A stretch of 44,853 nt of DNA from Chlamydiota bacterium (lineage in GTDB: Bacteria > Chlamydiota > Chlamydiia > Chlamydiales > Parachlamydiaceae), in the NCBI GenBank assembly GCA_013288825.1, contig JABDBC010000013.1, positions 1 to 44,853 of the forward strand, written 5' to 3'. The position numbers and the translations under genes are program-made. Below, one piece after another: positions 2,324 through 44,406 of the stretch (position 1 is its first letter; every line of letters starts with the position of its first letter). A model generated the notes under the pieces. That model saw only the letters and a program-made list of their open reading frames with translations. It was not told the DNA's origin and searched no databases.

Positions 2324-2424
2324 AAAAGTAACAGGATATGCAGGATCGCAAGCGGCAGGATAAGAAGGATGCTTACTATCCTTCTTATCCTGCCGCTTGC
2401 GATCCTGCATATCCTGTTACTTTT
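2324..2424. repeat. Perfect 47-bp-arm palindrome (module E, CAGGAT words)
   Basis: Arms at 2324-2370 and 2378-2424 are perfectly complementary around a 7-nt loop. Each arm is itself a degenerate tandem of about 9-nt words (CAGGATATG, CAGGATCG, CAGGATAAG, AAGGAT). The same module is nested inside the palindrome at 39821-40091. It lies between convergent genes and could act as a bidirectional terminator, but no clean U-tract follows. Confidence 0.95.
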
Positions 2425-5320: not shown

Positions 5321-5785
5321 ATGAAAATCGTTTTATTCCAGCCCCAAATTCCTCAAAATACAGGCAACATCGTGCGCACATGTGCTGTCACTGGATGCAG
5401 CCTTACTCTGATTTCCCCTCTTGGCTTTAGTATCACTGATCGCTGGCTTAAAAGATCGGGTTTAGACTATTGGGAAGGGGTGGAAGTAAATGTTGTTGAA
5501 GACCTCGAAAAATTACTTCGAGAAGCTCCTGCAAGCTTTTATTTTCTTTCTAGTAAAGCGAGCGTTTCTTACACAATGCCCCAATATAAACCTGACGATT
5601 GGTTGATTTTTGGCTCTGAGACAGCAGGTTTGCCATCTGATATTACAAATGCATATCCACAGCAATGCGTGAGAATACCCATGCTTCCACAAGCGCGTTG
5701 CTTAAACCTGGCAACGTCGGTGGGGATTGCTGTGTACGAGGCATTAAGACAGCAACAGTTTATGGGAGAGGGACAAGGGACGTAA
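5321..5785 (+). CDS. trmL: tRNA (cytidine/uridine-34-2'-O)-methyltransferase TrmL (SpoU family)
   Basis: This is a SPOUT methyltransferase of 154 residues, the length of E. coli TrmL, which methylates the ribose of wobble position 34 in tRNA-Leu. Motif 1 is at the N-terminus (PQIPQNTGNIVRTCAVTG), motif 2 is LIFGSETAGLP (about 93-103) and motif 3 RIPMLPQARCLNLATSVGIA (about 116-135) contains the SAM-binding trefoil knot. An AGGATT element just before the ATG overlaps the end of the mip terminator. The last five codons (coding GEGQGT) and the TAA lie in or at the edge of the outer arm of the palindrome at 5769-6149, so the C-terminus is written by repeat DNA. It corresponds to C. trachomatis spoU between mip and trxA, from memory. 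Confidence 0.92.
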   Translation: MKIVLFQPQIPQNTGNIVRTCAVTGCSLTLISPLGFSITDRWLKRSGLDYWEGVEVNVVEDLEKLLREAPASFYFLSSKASVSYTMPQYKPDDWLIFGSETAGLPSDITNAYPQQCVRIPMLPQARCLNLATSVGIAVYEALRQQQFMGEGQGT

Positions 5786-6149
5786 AGAGGTAATTGCAGA
5801 AGCGCCAAATCATCAGCTCAAAGCTATTGGTTTGTGCCGGCCCTCCGGGACGGGATGTGTTGGTTGGCAGTTACCCAGGCTTCGCTTACCCCTCCGGGGA
5901 GCTTCAGCCTGGGCTATTACGTGAACAGGCCCTCCGGGCTGTATGCAGGAGCTTTTGTATGAAAATCACTTTTCACACTGCCCGGAGGGCTGTTTACATA
6001 ATAGCCCAGGCTGAAGCTCCCCGGAGGGGTAAGCGAAGCCTGGGTAAGCGCCAAACAACCCATCCCGTCCCGGAGGGCCGGCACAAACCAATAGCTTTGA
6101 CCTGATGATTTGGCACTTCTGCAATTACCTCTTTACGTCCCTTGTCCCT
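5769..6149. repeat. 381-nt long inverted repeat, copy 1 of the CCGGCCCTCCGGGACGG element
   Basis: The outer arms (AGGGACAAGGGACGTAAA) are identical. The arms run inward for about 170 nt at roughly 90-95 percent identity around a loop of about 35 nt near 5944-5979. Each arm has smaller palindromes within it, for example CCCAGGCTT facing AGCCTGGG around CCCCTCCGGGG. It fills the convergent gap between trmL and trxA and overlaps the end of trmL. A second, diverged copy lies at 44028-44406. The outermost shell also exists as a stand-alone hairpin at 6569-6611. Confidence 0.95.
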
Positions 6150-12082: not shown

Positions 12083-15000
12083 ATGTCAAAAAAAATTTTA
12101 GGGTATAAAATTAACGATAAAGCTCTTTATGTAGGTGAGTATACAGTTGTCTATACTGGGCTCCGCAATGCTGATAATTCACCAATCGTCGTTAAAATGC
12201 TCAAAGAAGAACACCCCTCCCTCGATCTAATCGCCCATTTTAAGCATGAATATGAAATTGCTAAACTTTTTAATGCCGTACAGGATATTGTTCAAGTATT
12301 TTCATTGGAACAAGATGGAAATAATTATGCCATTGTGATGGAAAATATTAATTTCTCAACTTTATCTGAGGTCATTGAAAGGAAAAAAAAATTCAACTTG
12401 GAAGATTTTCTTAATCTGGCAATTCCAATGGCCGAGGGGCTGGGACACGTTCATAAAAATAACATTATCCATATGGATATCAATCCAAACAATATCATGT
12501 GCGATTATCCTGCCATGAAAATCAAAATTATTGACTTTGGCCTTTCTGATGCCCTCCCAAAAGAAAGAGCACAAATTGTTAGTCCAAATGCGTTAAAGGG
12601 GACTCTGTCCTATCTTTCTCCCGAACAAACCGGACGCATGAACCGTGGGATAGACTACCGGACAGATTATTACTCCTTGGGCGTTACATTTTATCAAATG
12701 TTGACCGGAGGGCTTCCCTTCGTAACAGATGATCCTATGCAGCTTGTTCATTATCATATTGCTGCCATTCCCAAATCACCCAAGGCCATTGATTCCTCTA
12801 TCCCGGAGGTAGTTTCCGATGTTGTAATGAAGCTATTAGCCAAGAATGCTGAAGATCGATATCAAAACGTCAATGGATTGATTGCCGACTTGCAAGAATG
12901 TCGGAACAGGTTACAATGTACTGGAAAAATAGATCCCTTTTCTCTCGGCATTCATGACTTGTTTAACCAATTCCAAATACCTGAAAAGTTATATGGGCGC
13001 GAAAATGAACTAAATGCATTATTGAATACCTATGAACGAGTCGTACAAGGCAAAGCGGAACTTTTATTAGTTGCCGGGTATTCGGGCATTGGAAAAACAG
13101 CACTTGTACATGAAATTCATAAAACCATTTTAGCTAGACACGGTTATTTTATATCAGGTAAATTCGATCAGTTTAAAAAAAACATACCCTATTCAGCCAT
13201 AGTTCAGGCTTTTGATGATTTTGTCCAACAAATTTTAACAGAATCTGAAGAAAAAATTGACAAGCTGCGTCACAAAATCATGAGCGCAGTCCAAGACTCT
13301 GGACAGCTTATTTTAGATCTCATCCCAAGTTTTGCGTCCATTATTGGCAAGCAACCGGAAATCCCCGTTTTAGGCCCTATTGAAAACCAAAACCGCCTTA
13401 ATTTCGTTTTTCAAAACTTGATTAAAGCAGTAGCAAGCAGCGAAAACCCCCTTGTTATTTTTTTAGATGATTTACAATGGGCCGATCTTGCTTCCCTGAA
13501 GATGATTGAAACTCTGCTACTTAGCCCCGATTGTCAATATCTTTTCATTATTGGCGCCTATCGCAATAACGAGGTCGGGGTAGAACATCCCCTGATGCAA
13601 ACCTTGGAAAAATTAAAGAAAAGGGAAATTCTTTGCGAATCTATTGACGTCGGTCCGTTGACTTTGGAGGCTGTTTCTGAATTAATCGCTGATTCTCTTC
13701 ATCAAGATTTAAAGAGCGTTCAACCCCTTGCTGGATTGTGCTATGAAAAGACTGGGGGCAATCCTTTTTTTCTTATTCAATTACTGCTTACTCTTTATAA
13801 AGAACAGTTGATTGTATTTGATCTTTCTATAAACAGATGGATTTGGGATTTTAATAAAATCAAAGAAATAAAGATTTCAGATAATGTCGTTCAGTTGATG
13901 GTAAATAAAATTGGAGAATTGGCACCTGATACGCAAAAAGCATTGCAGCTGGCTGCTTTTCTTGGCAATCAATTTGACCTTGAGACTCTAGCTGCGATAA
14001 GCGCAAAAGATTCCACAGTCATTTTGCAAGAGTTAAATGAGGCTTTGCGAGAAGGTTATATTATTAGCTCAGGGAATGCTTCTTATGCGACGCGCTTTTA
14101 TTTCGCCCATGACCGCATTCAACAGGCCGCCTATTCTATGGTTGAAGAAGACCAACGAATTCTGATCCATACTGAGATCGCACGTTTGTTGCTTAAAAAA
14201 GCTACAACGAAAAAATTGGAGGAAAAACTTTTTGATATCGTGAACCATTATGACCTCGCGATTGAGCAAGGAATCCCTGACAATATTATCGACATAAAAG
14301 AAAAAAGAAACATCGCTGAATTAAATTTGAAGGCTTCTCAGGCAGCGAGTAGTGCAGCAGCCTTTGAGCTGGCTTTAAAGTATGTCGAATACGGGTTAAG
14401 ATGCGTGCAAAACGAATCGTGGAAGAATGATTATGCGCTGATGTTTGGGTTATATTCAGCTGCTACTGAAGTCTCCTATTTAAACGGTAAATTTGACCTG
14501 TTTGAAAAATATGCAGAAATATCTATTGAAAATGCTGCAACCCTTATTGATAAGATTAAAATTATGGAATTAAAGATATTGGCCTATTCTGCTCAGACAA
14601 AACAAGAAGAGGCAATTAAAATAGGCATAGAGGCTATTGATTCTTTAGGATTGAAATTACCTATACATCCAACATTGATCAATATTTTTATAGCAATGGC
14701 AAAGTTAAAATTTATCATGATCGGAAAAAGTATAGCTAGTCTAGAAAATCTTCCAGTTTTAACTAATCAAAAACTTGCACTGATCATCCGGTTAACAAAT
14801 TTTATAATACCTGCACTCGTTCATACAAACCATAAATTATTAATGTTAATCACTTTAGAGGCTGCTTATTTATCGCTTCAACATGGGTTAAGTGGATATT
14901 CAGCAACTATTTTTCTTTCTTACGGCATCATAAATGTCACAGTTTTAAACCAAATAAATGTCGGTTATGAATGGGGCAAACTCGCCTTGAAAGTAGTAAG

Positions 15001-17188
15001 AAAATTGGGACTTCCAATGAATTTATATAAGATTACTTTTGTTGCTATTGTAATGCTAAAACATTGGAAGGAACCGGTGCATGATTTACTCCCTTTACTT
15101 AAAGAAACTGCTGAGTCTTCCTTTCATATTGGTGCAACCGAACAGGCAGGCTATTCTATAGCCAATTATTACCGCAATGCGTATATTACTGGAGTACCGA
15201 TAAACGAACTTTTGGCTACCATAGACTCACATAAAATGCGCTTTAAAGAGATACAGCCAGTAAGCTACAATACTCTTTCACAGTGTCATCAAGTACTGAT
15301 AAATCTTTCCAGTCAATCTTTGCAACCCACTCTGTTAATAGGATCTGCCTTTGATGCGGAAACGATGCTGCCTGCATTTAAAAAAGCAAATAATAAAACA
15401 ATGCTGTTTCTCTACTATCTCGATAAATTAATTCTCTGTTTCCTTTTTGAAAAATATGACGAAGCCCTTGCCAACGCCCAAGCAGCAGAACAATTTAAGG
15501 AAGGGTTTGCAGGAGGGTACCCCATTCAAGTTTTTCATTTTTATAGAACCCTAGCATATCTGCATGATCCTAAAAAAAACCGTAACATTCCAAGAGAGAT
15601 TCGATCGTCAAGAAAGAAAATGGCACAATGGGCAAAGCTGGCTCCCGCTAATGCTCTGCAAAAGCATCTTTTGATCGAAGCTGAAATTGCACGCATGAAG
15701 GATCAACATGAAATCGCTAGAAAGCTCTATGATCAAGCCATTGCTGCAGCGAACAAACATAAATTTCTCAATGATGAAGCACTGGCCAATGAGCTTGCAG
15801 CTAAATACTATCTATCTCAGGATAATGAAAGATTAGCTAGCATGTATATGGAAGATGCCCGTTATACCTATCTTTTATGGGGGGCTCAGGGTAAGGTGGC
15901 TTACATGGATCAGCAATATAGCCATCTTTTTATGCGTAGGGAGGGGAGCTCAAGAAGGTCTACATCTTCTTCTATTTCACAGTCATCCATCCATTCAAGC
16001 AAATCCAACAATCTGGATATAAGCAGCATAGAAAAAACGTCTTACACCCTTTCGAGCACCATTGTTCTCGGAGATTTACTCAAGAAACTGATGATAATTG
16101 CCATCGAAAATGCCGGTGCAGAAAGAAGTTACTTATTACTGAACAAAGACGGCAAATTATTTATCGAGGCTGAGGGAATGATAGGACAGGACGAGCCTAG
16201 AGTGCTACAGTCGATTGAGATAAATAATAACATTTTGCCAATATCTATTATTAACTATGTTAATCATGCCAATGAGACAGTCGTATTGGATGACGCCTTT
16301 CACTCCACAAAGTTTGCTAAGGATGCATACATTCAAGAAAAACAGCCAAAATCGATTTTATGTATGCCATTATTAAACAAAGGGCAGATTTCAGGTATTT
16401 TATATATGGAGAATAATCTAACAAAAGGCGTCTTTAGTGTGGATCGAATTAAATTTCTTAATGTCTTATCTTCGCAAATGGCTATTTCTATTGATAATGC
16501 GCGCCTTTATAATCGCACCAAAGAACTTTGCGACGAATTAGTCGTTTTAAATAGATCGTTTGCACGTTTTGTACCTGAAGACTTTTTAAGGTTACTTGAA
16601 AAAAATAGCATCCTCGATGTCAAACTTGGAGACCATGTTCAAAAAAACATGACTGTGCTCTTTGCTGATATCCGCGATTTTACGACCCTGTCAGAAAAAA
16701 TGACACCTGAAGAGAATTTTAATTTTATCAATTCAATTTTAAACATTATGAGTCCTATCATACAAAAGCATCATGGGTTTATTGATAAGTTTATTGGCGA
16801 CGCGATCATGGCCCTTTTTCCTGAGGAGTCTGACCACGCCATTCAATGTGCCTTGGAGATGCAGGAATCTCTTGTAAAATATAACCAGGGTAGAATGGAA
16901 AATGATTCCCTTAAGATAGGCATCGGTATAAATACCGGCCCCCTTATGCTTGGAACTGTTGGAGAGGAACAGAGAATGAGTGCTACTGTCATTTCTGATG
17001 CAGTTAACGTAGCTGCGCGTGTAGAGAGCCTGACCAAAAATTACAACGTTTCTATTTTAATCACTAAAGACACCTATGATGAAATTAAAAATCCCGCACA
17101 ATATGACCTCAAGGTGTTAGATACTATCTTGGTAAAAGGGAAAGCGCAGCAAATTACAATCTATGCTGTCACCTTAAACCAAACATAA
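12083..17188 (+). CDS. Giant signalling protein: Ser/Thr kinase - AAA ATPase - helical repeats - GAF - class III cyclase
   Basis: This 1701-residue soluble protein has an N-terminal Ser/Thr kinase (1-270) with Lys38, HMDINPNN (Asp132) and DFG (Asp151) all present. Next comes a STAND/AAA_16-type ATPase (about 305-620) with YGRENEL, Walker A GYSGIGKT at 332-339 and Walker B FLDD at 460-463. A long TPR-like helical region (about 745-1280), a Ser-rich linker (about 1290-1310) and a GAF domain (about 1325-1480) follow. The class III cyclase domain (about 1515-1690) has both metal Asp (FADIRD, Asp1529; GDAIMA, Asp1573) and the transition-state Asn1642 and Arg1646, so it should make cAMP or cGMP. 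Similar kinase-ATPase-GAF proteins of cyanobacteria and myxobacteria often end in a histidine kinase instead. No membrane segment is seen. AGGGG stands 7 nt before the ATG. Confidence 0.93.
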   Translation: MSKKILGYKINDKALYVGEYTVVYTGLRNADNSPIVVKMLKEEHPSLDLIAHFKHEYEIAKLFNAVQDIVQVFSLEQDGNNYAIVMENINFSTLSEVIERKKKFNLEDFLNLAIPMAEGLGHVHKNNIIHMDINPNNIMCDYPAMKIKIIDFGLSDALPKERAQIVSPNALKGTLSYLSPEQTGRMNRGIDYRTDYYSLGVTFYQMLTGGLPFVTDDPMQLVHYHIAAIPKSPKAIDSSIPEVVSDVVMKLLAKNAEDRYQNVNGLIADLQECRNRLQCTGKIDPFSLGIHDLFNQFQIPEKLYGRENELNALLNTYERVVQGKAELLLVAGYSGIGKTALVHEIHKTILARHGYFISGKFDQFKKNIPYSAIVQAFDDFVQQILTESEEKIDKLRHKIMSAVQDSGQLILDLIPSFASIIGKQPEIPVLGPIENQNRLNFVFQNLIKAVASSENPLVIFLDDLQWADLASLKMIETLLLSPDCQYLFIIGAYRNNEVGVEHPLMQTLEKLKKREILCESIDVGPLTLEAVSELIADSLHQDLKSVQPLAGLCYEKTGGNPFFLIQLLLTLYKEQLIVFDLSINRWIWDFNKIKEIKISDNVVQLMVNKIGELAPDTQKALQLAAFLGNQFDLETLAAISAKDSTVILQELNEALREGYIISSGNASYATRFYFAHDRIQQAAYSMVEEDQRILIHTEIARLLLKKATTKKLEEKLFDIVNHYDLAIEQGIPDNIIDIKEKRNIAELNLKASQAASSAAAFELALKYVEYGLRCVQNESWKNDYALMFGLYSAATEVSYLNGKFDLFEKYAEISIENAATLIDKIKIMELKILAYSAQTKQEEAIKIGIEAIDSLGLKLPIHPTLINIFIAMAKLKFIMIGKSIASLENLPVLTNQKLALIIRLTNFIIPALVHTNHKLLMLITLEAAYLSLQHGLSGYSATIFLSYGIINVTVLNQINVGYEWGKLALKVVRKLGLPMNLYKITFVAIVMLKHWKEPVHDLLPLLKETAESSFHIGATEQAGYSIANYYRNAYITGVPINELLATIDSHKMRFKEIQPVSYNTLSQCHQVLINLSSQSLQPTLLIGSAFDAETMLPAFKKANNKTMLFLYYLDKLILCFLFEKYDEALANAQAAEQFKEGFAGGYPIQVFHFYRTLAYLHDPKKNRNIPREIRSSRKKMAQWAKLAPANALQKHLLIEAEIARMKDQHEIARKLYDQAIAAANKHKFLNDEALANELAAKYYLSQDNERLASMYMEDARYTYLLWGAQGKVAYMDQQYSHLFMRREGSSRRSTSSSISQSSIHSSKSNNLDISSIEKTSYTLSSTIVLGDLLKKLMIIAIENAGAERSYLLLNKDGKLFIEAEGMIGQDEPRVLQSIEINNNILPISIINYVNHANETVVLDDAFHSTKFAKDAYIQEKQPKSILCMPLLNKGQISGILYMENNLTKGVFSVDRIKFLNVLSSQMAISIDNARLYNRTKELCDELVVLNRSFARFVPEDFLRLLEKNSILDVKLGDHVQKNMTVLFADIRDFTTLSEKMTPEENFNFINSILNIMSPIIQKHHGFIDKFIGDAIMALFPEESDHAIQCALEMQESLVKYNQGRMENDSLKIGIGINTGPLMLGTVGEEQRMSATVISDAVNVAARVESLTKNYNVSILITKDTYDEIKNPAQYDLKVLDTILVKGKAQQITIYAVTLNQT

Positions 17189-30232: not shown

Positions 30233-30655
30233 ATGCACTTATTAGTTTTTACACTTGATGATCAGTATTTCGGGCTTCCTCTTTCTGTGGTTACACAGGT
30301 AACCTCAGCAGTTGAGATTACCCATTTGCCGCATTCTCCAAGCCAATGCATAGGCGCTATCAATTTACATGGGGAGATCACCCCCGTGTTTAGCATGAGA
30401 CGTTTACTAGGATTACGAGAAAAGGAGATCGATCTTACAGATCAATTTGTTATCTGCAATCTGAATAAGAAGATTGTCGGGTTGTGGATTGATAATGCTA
30501 AAAGTGTATCGCAATTCACAAAAAGCGCCTGTACATCAGGCGGTGAGCTCTTTCCAAAAGCAGAAGCACTCGAACATGTCATCAAGAACGACAGTCAAAT
30601 CATCTTAGTCTATGATATCGAGCGCTTACTGCCCTTGGAAGTTCTAAAAAAATAG
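30233..30655 (+). CDS. cheW: CheW-like scaffold protein
   Basis: The 140-residue protein is a single CheW domain (LLVFTLDDQYFGLPLSVV, IGAINLHGEITPVF, VGLWIDNA). CheW normally couples receptors to the kinase CheA. It lies 78 nt before a CheR-like gene on the same strand, with a CACAGAG half-site between them. No CheA, receptor or flagellar gene is in the window, so a non-chemotactic signalling use is likely but unproven. Confidence 0.85.
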   Translation: MHLLVFTLDDQYFGLPLSVVTQVTSAVEITHLPHSPSQCIGAINLHGEITPVFSMRRLLGLREKEIDLTDQFVICNLNKKIVGLWIDNAKSVSQFTKSACTSGGELFPKAEALEHVIKNDSQIILVYDIERLLPLEVLKK

Positions 30656-30667
30656 CAAATATTCCCC

Positions 30668-30712
30668 CTAAAACATCTCTGTAAGAATTTTACCACAGAG
30701 ATCACAGAGAAC
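30668..30712. repeat. Unpaired CACAGAG half-site (module D with its flank)
   Basis: AAAACATCTCTGTAAGA followed by TTTTACCACAGAGATCACAG matches the right shell and flank of the palindrome at 39821-40091 (40076-40118 read on the minus strand) and the left side of 17233. No inverted partner is present. It ends about 20 nt before the cheR-like start codon. Confidence 0.8.
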
Positions 30713-36994: not shown

Positions 36995-37297
36995 CGTAAC
37001 AGTTCAGAACCCCCTTCGCTATATGTCAGGCCTTCAGCCTGAGATGTTTATGTGCCAAACCTAGGGCGTTGCCCTAGGCTGTTATATTTCAGGGCGTTGC
37101 CCTGAGAACTATGCTCAGGCTGAAAGTCTGATTTATAAAAGTTGCCCTAGGCTGTTATATTTCAAGGCGTTGCCCTGAGAACTATGCTCAGGCTGAAAGC
37201 CTGATTTATAAAAGCCTAGGGCAACGCCCTAGGTTTAGCACATAAACATCTCAGGCTGAAGGCCTGACATATAGCGAAGGAGCATCTGAACTCTTAC
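36995..37297. repeat. About 300-nt composite palindrome with an internal tandem duplication
   Basis: The outer shell TAACAGTTCAGA ... TCTGAACTCTTA (module G) encloses CCTTCGCTATATGTCAGGCC and the words CTAGGGCGTTGCCCTAG and TCAGGCTGAAGGCCTGA. Inside lies a direct tandem of two 73-nt units (37068-37140 and 37141-37213) differing at about three bases; each unit holds its own small palindromes (CAGGGCGTTGCCCTG, CTCAGGCTGAAAG). The gap between the Panacea gene and mgtE (36941-37341) holds nothing else. Confidence 0.93.
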
Positions 37298-38879: not shown

Positions 38880-39791
38880 ATGAACCTAGAGGGGTTTTTT
38901 GCAAATATGAAAAAAGGAAAAAATTTTCTACCTTTTATGCTGATCTTTTCGGGCATAATCGTACTCATTTTTCTAATCATGCAACCCTTATCAGTTCTTC
39001 ATTTCCGCGATAACATCTCTGTTTTGTTTCCGAAAGGGATCATTGCTCTCGAAGAACGCAACCTCCTGTTCATTATCCAAGCAATCATGTTGCTTGTGAT
39101 CATTCCAGTCTACATCTTCACTTTTATATTTTCCTGGAAGTACAGAGCAAATAACCCTAAGGGAACATATGATCCTGATTTGATAGATAACCGCCTCGCA
39201 GAATATGTATGGTGGGGCATTCCTTGTGTTTTGACTCTCATAATTGCGATAATCACATGGAACAAAACATATCAACTAGATCCCTACAAGCCGCTTGAAT
39301 CTGACAAAAAGCCAATGACAATCCAAGTTGTGGCACTACAGTGGAAGTGGTTATTCCTCTATCCAGAAGAGAAAATTGCCAGCATCAATTTTGTTCAATT
39401 TCCTAAAGATGTTCCCATTCAATTTGAAATCACTGCTGATGCTCCCATGAACTCCTTTTGGATTCCCCATCTAGCCGGTCAAATTTATGCGATGCCAAAA
39501 ATGAAGACCAAATTAAATCTTATCGCCAATGAAGAGGGAGATTTCAGAGGTTCTTCAGCCAACCTCAGCGGTGAAGGTTTTTCAGGGATGCATTTCATCG
39601 CCAGAGCCACATCTGAAGAGGTTTACAATGAATGGTTGAAAACAGCAAAACAATCGTCAAGCATTCTCAATCTTGAAGAATACAATAAATTAGCAGCTCC
39701 GAGTAAGAACAACGCTGTCGGGATTTATCAGTTGAAAGACGACAGTCTTTTCGATCAAATAATAATGAAATATATGCTCCCGGAACAGTGA
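38880..39791 (+). CDS. cyoA: Cytochrome bo quinol oxidase subunit II
   Basis: Subunit II of the proton-pumping ubiquinol oxidase. The protein has two transmembrane segments near residues 20-45 and 65-95 and a periplasmic cupredoxin-like domain with QVVALQWKWLF, PMNSFWIPHLAGQIYAMP and SGEGFSGMHF. The CuA ligands are absent, as expected for a quinol oxidase. No lipobox Cys is present, unlike E. coli CyoA. The ATG at 38880 with GGGAG 4-5 nt upstream is preferred; earlier in-frame starts (38850, 38856) lack an SD. The gene is separated from cyoB by a 271-nt palindrome although the rest of the operon is tightly packed. Confidence 0.92.
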   Translation: MNLEGFFANMKKGKNFLPFMLIFSGIIVLIFLIMQPLSVLHFRDNISVLFPKGIIALEERNLLFIIQAIMLLVIIPVYIFTFIFSWKYRANNPKGTYDPDLIDNRLAEYVWWGIPCVLTLIIAIITWNKTYQLDPYKPLESDKKPMTIQVVALQWKWLFLYPEEKIASINFVQFPKDVPIQFEITADAPMNSFWIPHLAGQIYAMPKMKTKLNLIANEEGDFRGSSANLSGEGFSGMHFIARATSEEVYNEWLKTAKQSSSILNLEEYNKLAAPSKNNAVGIYQLKDDSLFDQIIMKYMLPEQ

Positions 39792-39820
39792 TTCGGGTAA
39801 AAAAAACAACTAAATTTTAA

Positions 39821-40091
39821 TTTTACCACAGAGATCACAGAGAACAGAGGGGGAGCAGGAAAGTAACAGGATATGCAGGATCGCAAGCGACAGGATAAGA
39901 AGGATAGTGAGCATCCTCTTGATATACAAAGAATTTCCAATGGATCTAAGGCCTCCCGGCCTTAGATCCATTGGAAATTCTTTTGAATTACAAGAGGATG
40001 CTCACTATCCTTCTTATCCTGCCGCTTGCGATCCTGCATATCCTGTTACTTTTCTGCTCCCCCTCTGTTCTCTGTGATCTCTGTGGTAAAA
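39821..40091. repeat. 271-nt nested palindrome between cyoA and cyoB (modules D, E, F)
   Basis: The arms of about 133 nt are some 95 percent identical around a 4-nt centre (TCCC near 39956). From outside in: TTTTACCACAGAGATCACAG (module D), GTAACAGGATATGCAGGATC (module E, also stand-alone at 2324), then TGAGCATCCTCTTG and AATTTCCAATGGATCTAAGG (module F). It lies inside an operon and could attenuate transcription of cyoBCDE. The SD and ATG of cyoB lie just beyond it. Confidence 0.97.
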
Positions 40092-40147
40092 ATCTTACAA
40101 AGATGTTTTAACGGGAATTATTACTCCCGAAAAAGGAATAGTCATCT

Positions 40148-42118
40148 ATGTTTGGCAGACTAACCCTAGAGGCTTTTAAGCACGAGCCCAGTCAGAACTT
40201 TGCCGTTGTTATGATGGTCTTAACAGGCATTGGCATTATGGGTGCCATTACTTACTCTAAGAAATGGAAGTGGCTGTGGGATGAATGGTTCACTTCAGTG
40301 GATCCCAAAAAAATTGGCCTGATGTACATCATCGTCGCCCTTCTCATGTTTTTCAAAGGCTTCTCAGACGCACTCATGATGCGTTTGCAACAAGCTCTTT
40401 CCGTCGGCGATGCCCATGGTTTCATTGCTCCAGGCCATTTCCAAGAGATTTTTTCTGCTCACGGCACAACCATGATCTTTTTTGTAGGAATGGGTGTTGT
40501 TTTTGGTCTTATGAATCTCGTTATCCCCCTGCAAATTGGAGCCAGAGATGTTGCCTACCCTTTTTTAAATGCCCTCGGTTTCTGGCTTTTTGCAGCGGCT
40601 TCTGTGTTGTCCCTCTTCTCATTGGCTATCGGTAAATTTTCAGCAACGGGCTGGCTTGCTTACCCACCTCTTTCAGGAATTGAATATAGTCCAGATGAGG
40701 GTGTCGACTATTGGATATGGATCGTGCAAATCGCAGGCATTGGAAGCACCCTTTCAGGCATTAACTTCATAGTGACAATTTTGAAAATGCGCTGCCCAGG
40801 GATGACTTTCATGAAAATGCCCATCTTCGTTTGGAGCGGACTCTGTGCAATGGTTCTGGTCATTTTTGCCTTTCCAATCTTGACAGCAACGCTTGTCTTA
40901 CTCTCTTTAGATCGCTATTTAGGCATGCATTTTTTCACTGCAGGCTTTGGCGGAAATCCCATGATGTATATCAATCTCATCTGGGCGTGGGGACATCCTG
41001 AAGTCTACATTCTCATTTTACCGGCCTTTGGCATCTTTTCCGAAGTGGTTCCAACCTTCTCTGAAAAGCGTCTATTCGGATATGCTTCCATGGTTTGGGC
41101 CCTCATTGTTATCACATTTTTGTCCTTTGTCGTATGGCTGCATCATTTTTTCACAATGGGCGCAAGCTCTGGTGTTAATGCCTTTTTTGGGATCATGACA
41201 ATGTTAATCGCCATTCCCACCGGTGTGAAGTTATTTAACTGGTTATTCACAAAATTCCGAGGACGTGTTCATTTTACTTCCCCAATGCTGTGGTTTTTTG
41301 CTTTTGTGCTAAACTTTAGCATCGGTGGAATGACAGGCATTTTGCTGTCTGCACCTCCTGTTGATTACCAAGCACATAACAGCTTATTTCTGATCGCCCA
41401 CTTTCATGGCATGGTGATCGGCGGAATGCTATTCGGATTTTTCTGTGGTTTTACCTATTGGTTCCCAAAATTTACCGGATTCTTTTTAAGCGAACGATTG
41501 AACATCTATGCCTTTTGGTGCTGGTTTACGGGATTTTTACTTGCTTTTATGCCCCTCTACATGCTCGGCTTTATGGGGGCAACAAGGCGCTTGGATCATT
41601 ATGAGGCCTCTACCGGATGGCAACCCTTGTTCATCATAGTCGGAATAGGCGCTCTCATCATTTTATGCGGAGTAGGTGTTCAAATTTACGGCCTATTTAT
41701 GAGCATTAAAGACCGCAAGAAAAACCTCGATGTCACAGGGAATCCTTGGAATGGCAGGACTTTGGAATGGTCCACACCATCTCCTCCACCCATCTATAAT
41801 TTTGCAATCACCCCGATTGTCGATGATCTCGACCCCTTGTGGGCCATCAAAGAAGGCCACGCGCCTCCACAAAACAAAAATTACGAAGATATTCATCTTC
41901 CAAAAAACACCCCCATGGGACTGTATATTGGAATTTTAAGTTTGATTTTTGGCTTTGCAATGACTTGGTATATGACATGGCTCGCACTCGCTAGCTTTGT
42001 TGCTATTGTCATTTGTTTAATTATTCGCCTCTCTGGCGAAGATGAACATGAAATGATCACCGCTAAACAGGTAAAAGAAATGGAAGCTGCCCACCTAAGT
42101 AAGCAAGGAGCTAGATAA
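40148..42118 (+). CDS. cyoB: Cytochrome bo quinol oxidase subunit I
   Basis: This is the catalytic heme-copper subunit with 656 residues and about 15 membrane segments. The conserved ligands are visible: HGTTMIFFVGM (low-spin heme His), WAWGHPEVYILILPAFG (CuB His with the cross-linked Tyr), VWLHHFFTMG (two CuB His) and HFHGMVIGG (heme ligands). It reduces oxygen to water with quinol electrons and pumps protons. AAGGA stands 10 nt before the ATG. Its TAA overlaps the ATG of cyoC by one base. Confidence 0.98.
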   Translation: MFGRLTLEAFKHEPSQNFAVVMMVLTGIGIMGAITYSKKWKWLWDEWFTSVDPKKIGLMYIIVALLMFFKGFSDALMMRLQQALSVGDAHGFIAPGHFQEIFSAHGTTMIFFVGMGVVFGLMNLVIPLQIGARDVAYPFLNALGFWLFAAASVLSLFSLAIGKFSATGWLAYPPLSGIEYSPDEGVDYWIWIVQIAGIGSTLSGINFIVTILKMRCPGMTFMKMPIFVWSGLCAMVLVIFAFPILTATLVLLSLDRYLGMHFFTAGFGGNPMMYINLIWAWGHPEVYILILPAFGIFSEVVPTFSEKRLFGYASMVWALIVITFLSFVVWLHHFFTMGASSGVNAFFGIMTMLIAIPTGVKLFNWLFTKFRGRVHFTSPMLWFFAFVLNFSIGGMTGILLSAPPVDYQAHNSLFLIAHFHGMVIGGMLFGFFCGFTYWFPKFTGFFLSERLNIYAFWCWFTGFLLAFMPLYMLGFMGATRRLDHYEASTGWQPLFIIVGIGALIILCGVGVQIYGLFMSIKDRKKNLDVTGNPWNGRTLEWSTPSPPPIYNFAITPIVDDLDPLWAIKEGHAPPQNKNYEDIHLPKNTPMGLYIGILSLIFGFAMTWYMTWLALASFVAIVICLIIRLSGEDEHEMITAKQVKEMEAAHLSKQGAR

Positions 42119-44027: not shown

Positions 44028-44406
44028 GAGGTAATTGCAGAAGTGCCAAATCATCAGGCCAACGGATATTGGTTTGTGCCGGCCCTCCGGGACGGTGTGT
44101 GTTGGTTGACGGTTACCCAGGCTTTGCTTACCCCTCCGGGGAGCTTCAACCTGGGCTATTACATGAACAGGCCCTCCGGGCTGTTTGCAACGTTTTTTGT
44201 TTGCTGAACCGCCTCGATTTATGTAGCACAGCAAATAACAGAAGTTGCAAACAGCCCGGAGGGCCTGTTCATGTAATAGCCCAGGTTGAAGCTCCCCGGA
44301 GGGGTAAGCAAAGCCTGGGTAACCGTCAACCAACACACACCGTCCCGGAGGGCCGGCACAAACCAATAGCGTTGGCCTGATGATGTGGCACTTCTGCAAT
44401 TACCTC
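44028..44406. repeat. 379-nt long inverted repeat, copy 2 of the CCGGCCCTCCGGGACGG element
   Basis: Arms of about 165 nt, over 95 percent identical, from GAGGTAATTGCAGAAGTGCC inward to GGGCTGTTTGCAAC, around a loop of about 45 nt. It is the same element as 5769-6149, without its GGGACAAGGGACGTA shell. Its two arms agree with each other where the two copies differ. It lies downstream of the cyo operon. Confidence 0.95.

Follow-up and report, generated by a model that had tools for sequence, protein, structure and literature searches.

A stack of palindromic repeats between cyoA and cyoB in a palindrome-rich chlamydial genome

Why does a long palindrome lie between two subunit genes of one respiratory enzyme, and does it serve the operon or merely reside there? 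The question arises from the window, a 44,853-nt stretch assigned to Chlamydiota bacterium (Parachlamydiaceae; GCA_013288825.1, contig JABDBC010000013.1, positions 1-44,853, forward strand). The source organism is an uncultured chlamydia with a draft genome of 2.62 Mb in 141 contigs. Our main reading, to which we give a probability of roughly 0.8, is that the palindrome is a non-autonomous, MITE-like palindromic repeat that was inserted between once-adjacent cyoA and cyoB and is itself a stack of insertions.

The cyoA-cyoB gap and its counterparts in relatives

The gene coordinates agree with the initial annotation in placing cyoA and cyoB 356 nt apart, with cyoC, cyoD and cyoE following cyoB and each touching or overlapping its neighbour. 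The gap holds, as had been claimed, a 271-nt palindrome (39821-40091) with 94% self-complementarity, and weaker symmetry extends beyond it to 39803-40109. Its predicted RNA fold reaches -260.4 kcal/mol, compared with -84.8 +/- 4.8 for shuffled sequences (z = -36.7). The features of the locus are as follows.

38880..39791, + strand: cyoA, quinol oxidase subunit II (PF06481, COX_ARM, 5e-14; PF00116, COX2, 5e-5); stop codon at 39789-39791
39803..40109, strandless: full extent of the palindrome, with 128-nt arms that are 90% complementary counting the weaker outer flanks
40133..40137, + strand: probable cyoB ribosome-binding site (AAGGA region), inferred from sequence, 3' of the insertion
40148..42118, + strand: cyoB, subunit I (PF00115, COX1, 4e-142)

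Among 29 genomes of the same family the cyoA-cyoB gap measures -11 to 39 nt and never contains a palindrome (0/29), and in 80 further cyo loci from public genomes it measures -1 to 67 nt. For example, the gap is 4 nt in Parachlamydiaceae bacterium HS-T3, the closest named relative found (81% identity in cyoB). The two genes are thus adjacent in the other bacteria compared, as had been supposed; the operon is contiguous in every relative compared, and the idea that all relatives share the wide gap without palindromes is false. Given that all these gaps are small, some 350 nt were gained in the lineage of the window, and by this comparison of sequences the palindrome is an insertion between formerly adjacent genes.

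No clear target-site duplication was found around the insertion. The best candidate is a faint, imperfect direct repeat at the two ends of the added DNA, GGAACAGTGAT at the cyoA stop and GGAATAGTCAT in the cyoB leader (9/11 positions match), which may, weakly, represent a worn duplication over the cyoA stop. In a genome from a different genus of the same family (G014, locus L176), a palindrome of another family (F12-like, AAAGCCCCGGGGTTGGATCGATCG...) lies in the cyoB-cyoC gap (161 nt), so the cyo operon has received such insertions independently on at least two occasions.

Nested modules and their dispersal through the genome

The nesting described in the initial annotation is present and comprises three layers. 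The outermost is a CACAGAG palindrome (F4), within which lie a CAGGAT palindrome (F1) and, innermost, a palindrome of 77 nt. These layers and the related elements of the window are listed below.

39825..39853, strandless: layer 1 left arm, F4 module ACCACAGAGATCACAGAGAACAGAGGGG, also seen at other loci, either alone or as the outer shell
40059..40087, strandless: layer 1 right arm, F4 module, paired with 39825..39853
39854..39917, strandless: layer 2 left arm, F1 module (AAAGTAACAGGATATGCAGGATCGCAAGCGACAGGATAAGAAGGAT...), part of the 205-nt core at 39854-40058
39995..40058, strandless: layer 2 right arm, F1 module, part of the same core
39901..39917, strandless: small stem-loop AGGAT-AGTGAGC-ATCCT, the old centre of F1, one of an inverted pair
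39995..40011, strandless: second, inverted stem-loop copy AGGAT-GCTCACT-ATCCT, partner of 39901..39917
39918..39994, strandless: layer 3, innermost palindrome core_b (CTTG...GGCCTCCCGGCC...CAAG), 77 nt
2324..2424, strandless: short, unfilled F1 palindrome, the second in the window, carrying the stem-loop once, AGGATGCTTACTATCCT
30654..30712, + strand: solitary F4 arm, 88% complementary to 40067-40125

The same F1 shell has alternative fillings. It is found unfilled (window 2324-2424), with core_b (window 39918-39994) and with a different filling, core_c (L152, L160 and L163), and the fillings always adjoin the stem-loop AGGAT-N7-ATCCT; an unfilled shell has one copy of this stem-loop, and filled shells have two in inverted orientation. 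The strongest evidence that insertions enter the centres of palindromes is that different fillings occupy one and the same central point. Other modules combine in similar ways: M2 surrounds F1, F4 or F5, F4 surrounds F1 (as in the window) or F5, and F11 surrounds F3. The F4 shell is also seen empty, and its module recurs, for example, at L157 3017-3146 and on contig C21, where one locus has F4 inside M2. A search for an empty M2 shell with its arms joined matched M2 arms only apart from each other. Reciprocal nesting (A in B as well as B in A) was not confirmed for both arms, and part of the stacks may therefore have been inherited or moved as composites.

On this architecture, the stack would have formed from the outside inwards, with the F4 palindrome first, F1 entering the centre of F4, and core_b entering the centre of F1. 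Such elements would land by preference, or survive best, 3' of stop codons and in the centres of existing palindromes, with hairpin or cruciform loops perhaps as their target.

Two observations concern arms outside this arrangement. The solitary F4 arm at 30654-30712 has no inverted partner and lies directly 3' of a stop codon, possibly as a half-element or remnant. In another genome (G005, L126 and L140), F1-type arms stand inside-out with the AACAGG end central, and by these two loci an F1 arm can apparently form a palindrome around either end.

The 205-nt core has about 40 matches in its own 2.62-Mb genome, mostly central in other palindromes. None of the 31 relatives searched carries the core at full length. 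The shorter F1 shell has a patchy distribution over several families and was found in 27 of 192 genomes from the phylum, this one counted. Eight genomes reached via other loci, most of them from other phyla, gave no F1 match, a number too small to exclude a wider spread. No match to plasmids or phages was found. By gap type, 38 core copies divide into 25 codirectional, 12 convergent and 1 divergent, and most core copies sit just 3' of a stop codon.

Outside the core the flanks vary between copies, yet within one copy they are palindromic to each other. The median palindrome score of a copy's own flanks is 22, compared with 2.5 for control pairs of flanks taken from different copies, and 26 of 37 core copies score at or above the 95th percentile of these controls. 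Such locus-specific palindromic flanks could also have grown in place: after one insertion, template switching during replication would have copied flank onto flank, lengthening the arms outward until coding sequence was reached. Hairpins are known to be generated and repaired by template switching (PMC8794818; PMC7202029), and the distance from the end of a palindrome to a stop codon is often no more than about 20 nt, as such growth would have it. Most flanks are, however, modules (recognisably M2, F4 or F5 in many cases) that are found elsewhere around other fillings, with the junction at the same position. Copying unique DNA outward would not yield shared modules, and we regard this origin of the layers as unlikely; it concerns only how layers form and is compatible with the insertion of a MITE-like repeat.

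Counting palindromes whose arms reach 30 nt or more in a 445-kb sample of the genome, we find 109, or 0.245 per kb, which make up 5.0% of the DNA and 37% of the intergenic DNA and represent at least 13 module types. The control, 622 kb around 66 mostly proteobacterial cyo loci, contains 1, and the relatives sampled have between 0 and 0.125 per kb. By extrapolation from the sample, the whole genome is estimated to hold about 640 palindromes (600 or more). Their placement is intergenic; a crude gene call based on ORFs leaves 3 of the 109 possibly within genes. Relative to expectation by free gap length, convergent gaps hold an excess (29 vs 19 expected) and divergent gaps a deficit (13 vs 28; P = 0.001). 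This pattern fits insertion or survival away from promoters, and also a preference for terminator hairpins.

The contrast with sampled relatives assembled in one to five contigs, which hold almost no such palindromes, and the draft state of this 141-contig assembly might suggest chimeric inverted repeats made during assembly or amplification. We consider such an artefact very improbable, because the arms differ by 5-15% and share family-specific variants, nearly all the palindromes are intergenic, the same modules stand at dozens of independent loci, and related palindromes occur in those 27 of 192 genomes.

The window contains further palindromes. Family F2 (CCTCCGGG / CCCAGGCTTCGC) is present as two 380-nt copies about 90% alike and 38 kb apart (5769-6149 and 44028-44406), and the palindrome at 36996-37297 contains a tandem duplication of 73 nt (37068-37213; copies 97% alike). 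No description of these repeats in chlamydiae was found in the literature searched.

Arm symmetry and the expression of the cyo genes

Arm divergence averages 5.0% within a copy, 12.1% between copies and 5.9% between nearest neighbours. The two arms also covary: both share the variant in 48 of 85 variable cells, compared with 13.9 expected when arms are shuffled among copies. Selection for RNA folding predicts more G.U than A.C mismatches on the transcribed strand, and in codirectional gaps the two are balanced (233 G.T vs 219 A.C; P = 0.54), with no sign of selection on RNA structure. We infer that symmetry is either inherited as symmetric founders spread or mended at the DNA level, for example by template switching or conversion.

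What the insertion does to transcription was judged from the following elements.

39977..39985, + strand: T-rich tract ATTCTTTTG, just 3' of the innermost stem, intrinsic-terminator-like
40046..40053, + strand: T-rich tract TTACTTTT, at the right edge of F1, conserved in nearly all copies

The pattern of an intrinsic terminator, a GC-rich stem followed by a T tract, is present on the + strand (39934-39977, then TTCTTTTGAA), and the pattern has matches on both strands. The stretch from 39767 to cyoB yielded no convincing promoter, and the palindrome has no Rfam match (the window gives only two tRNAs). Given two T-rich tracts after long stems and no convincing promoter, the hairpin is likely to terminate transcription partially or to be processed by RNase III. 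Reduced read-through into cyoB is physically plausible, cyoB would depend on read-through and on its own ribosome-binding site, and the expression of cyoA and of cyoB-E is probably no longer in the ancestral ratio.

The hairpin could even have been retained for this effect, terminating or processing the transcript and so setting the ratio of subunit II. Intra-operon attenuation has a known precedent in the REP sequences between malE and malF in Escherichia coli, and the very stable predicted fold, the T-rich tracts 3' of the stems, the position of most core copies just 3' of a stop codon and the covariation of the arms are all in line with it. We nevertheless find a functional attenuator improbable: the palindrome is missing from this gap in all 29 same-family relatives, the same core stands at some 40 unrelated loci, the 12 convergent junctions among them, and the transcribed strand lacks a G.U excess. 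The regulatory reading of the initial annotation therefore survives in part. A contiguous operon was indeed split by a palindrome, but a core shared by so many unrelated junctions, in a genome where palindromes fill over a third of the intergenic DNA, gives no support for a cyo-specific regulator. The alternative offered at that time, that the element is tolerated, fits best. As one of 600 or more such repeats, the palindrome is best read as chiefly a spreading repeat tolerated in an operon, and not as a purpose-built switch.

Known repeats, candidate movers and significance

The cyo palindrome family belongs to the palindromic interspersed repeats and is notable for its concentric nesting and density. 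Like bacterial MITEs, such as those of Coxiella (PMC5896051; reviewed in PMC10969869), its members are short, non-coding, intergenic inverted repeats in many copies with a lineage-specific expansion; specifically, the roughly 40 dispersed copies are non-coding and palindromic over their entire length, which provides the terminal inverted repeats. They differ from MITEs in that nearly the whole element is palindromic and in their concentric stacking; no partner IS, among four transposase families searched, and no clear target-site duplication was found. REP, BIME and REPIN sequences with their RAYT (TnpA-REP) proteins (PMC3116915; PMC8266576; PMC3733652) are likewise high-copy extragenic palindromes, and a RAYT-like gene is present in this genome. 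REPs, by contrast, are 20-40 nt long with GTAG/CGTC tags, whereas the F1 unit measures 100-205 nt and an alignment of 40 F1 copies shows no conserved GTAG or CGTC tag. Long inverted repeats also pack the mitochondrial genomes of nematomorphs (PMC6649704), but those are perfect repeats within coding genes, unlike the dispersed, nested and intergenic families described here.

Insertion into palindromes, or their replacement, is known from ISs that target REPs (PMC1525189) and from IS1272, which targets stem-loops (PMC5678879). These precedents make the targeting of centres credible, and a loop that served as the insertion target in the same way would explain the nesting. The present case differs in that the insert is a gene-less palindrome. 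Four transposase families were searched for in the genome (PF13751, PF01548, PF01609 and PF01797). The IS1182-family transposase (PF13751), which IS1272-type replacement of stem-loops would involve, is absent, as is the IS110 transposase (PF01548); PF01609 has two matches and PF01797 (HUH) four. None of these four families is linked to F1, F4 or core_b, and no site was found where one of two close strains carries an element that the other lacks.

Transposition would account for the dispersed copies, and the wider picture is of gene-less mobile palindromes that, throughout the genome, target the centres of others, stack concentrically and keep their symmetry by DNA-level template switching, with one stack in a respiratory operon. 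We put the chances of that full picture at about even.

Long concentric palindromes are usually thought to be unstable in bacteria. If our reading is correct, a chlamydial genome carries 37% of its intergenic DNA as concentric palindromes, and it would offer a natural system for studying what lets long palindromes persist, by what rules non-autonomous repeats select hairpins as targets, and in what way an operon adjusts to a 135-bp hairpin separating two subunits of the same enzyme.

One other palindrome family has a candidate partner. On contig C8, a RAYT-like gene (L158 1480-2145; 221 aa, PF01797, HUH motif NNHVHL) has F6 palindromes, GGGGACGGTTCTCGCATAACG, on both sides (L158 1164-2306); it is thus F6, and not F1, that flanks the gene, and F6 at least looks like a REP/RAYT pair. 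Apart from the repeats, the window encodes at 12083-17188 a single protein of 1701 aa with kinase, AAA ATPase, GAF and adenylate/guanylate cyclase domains.
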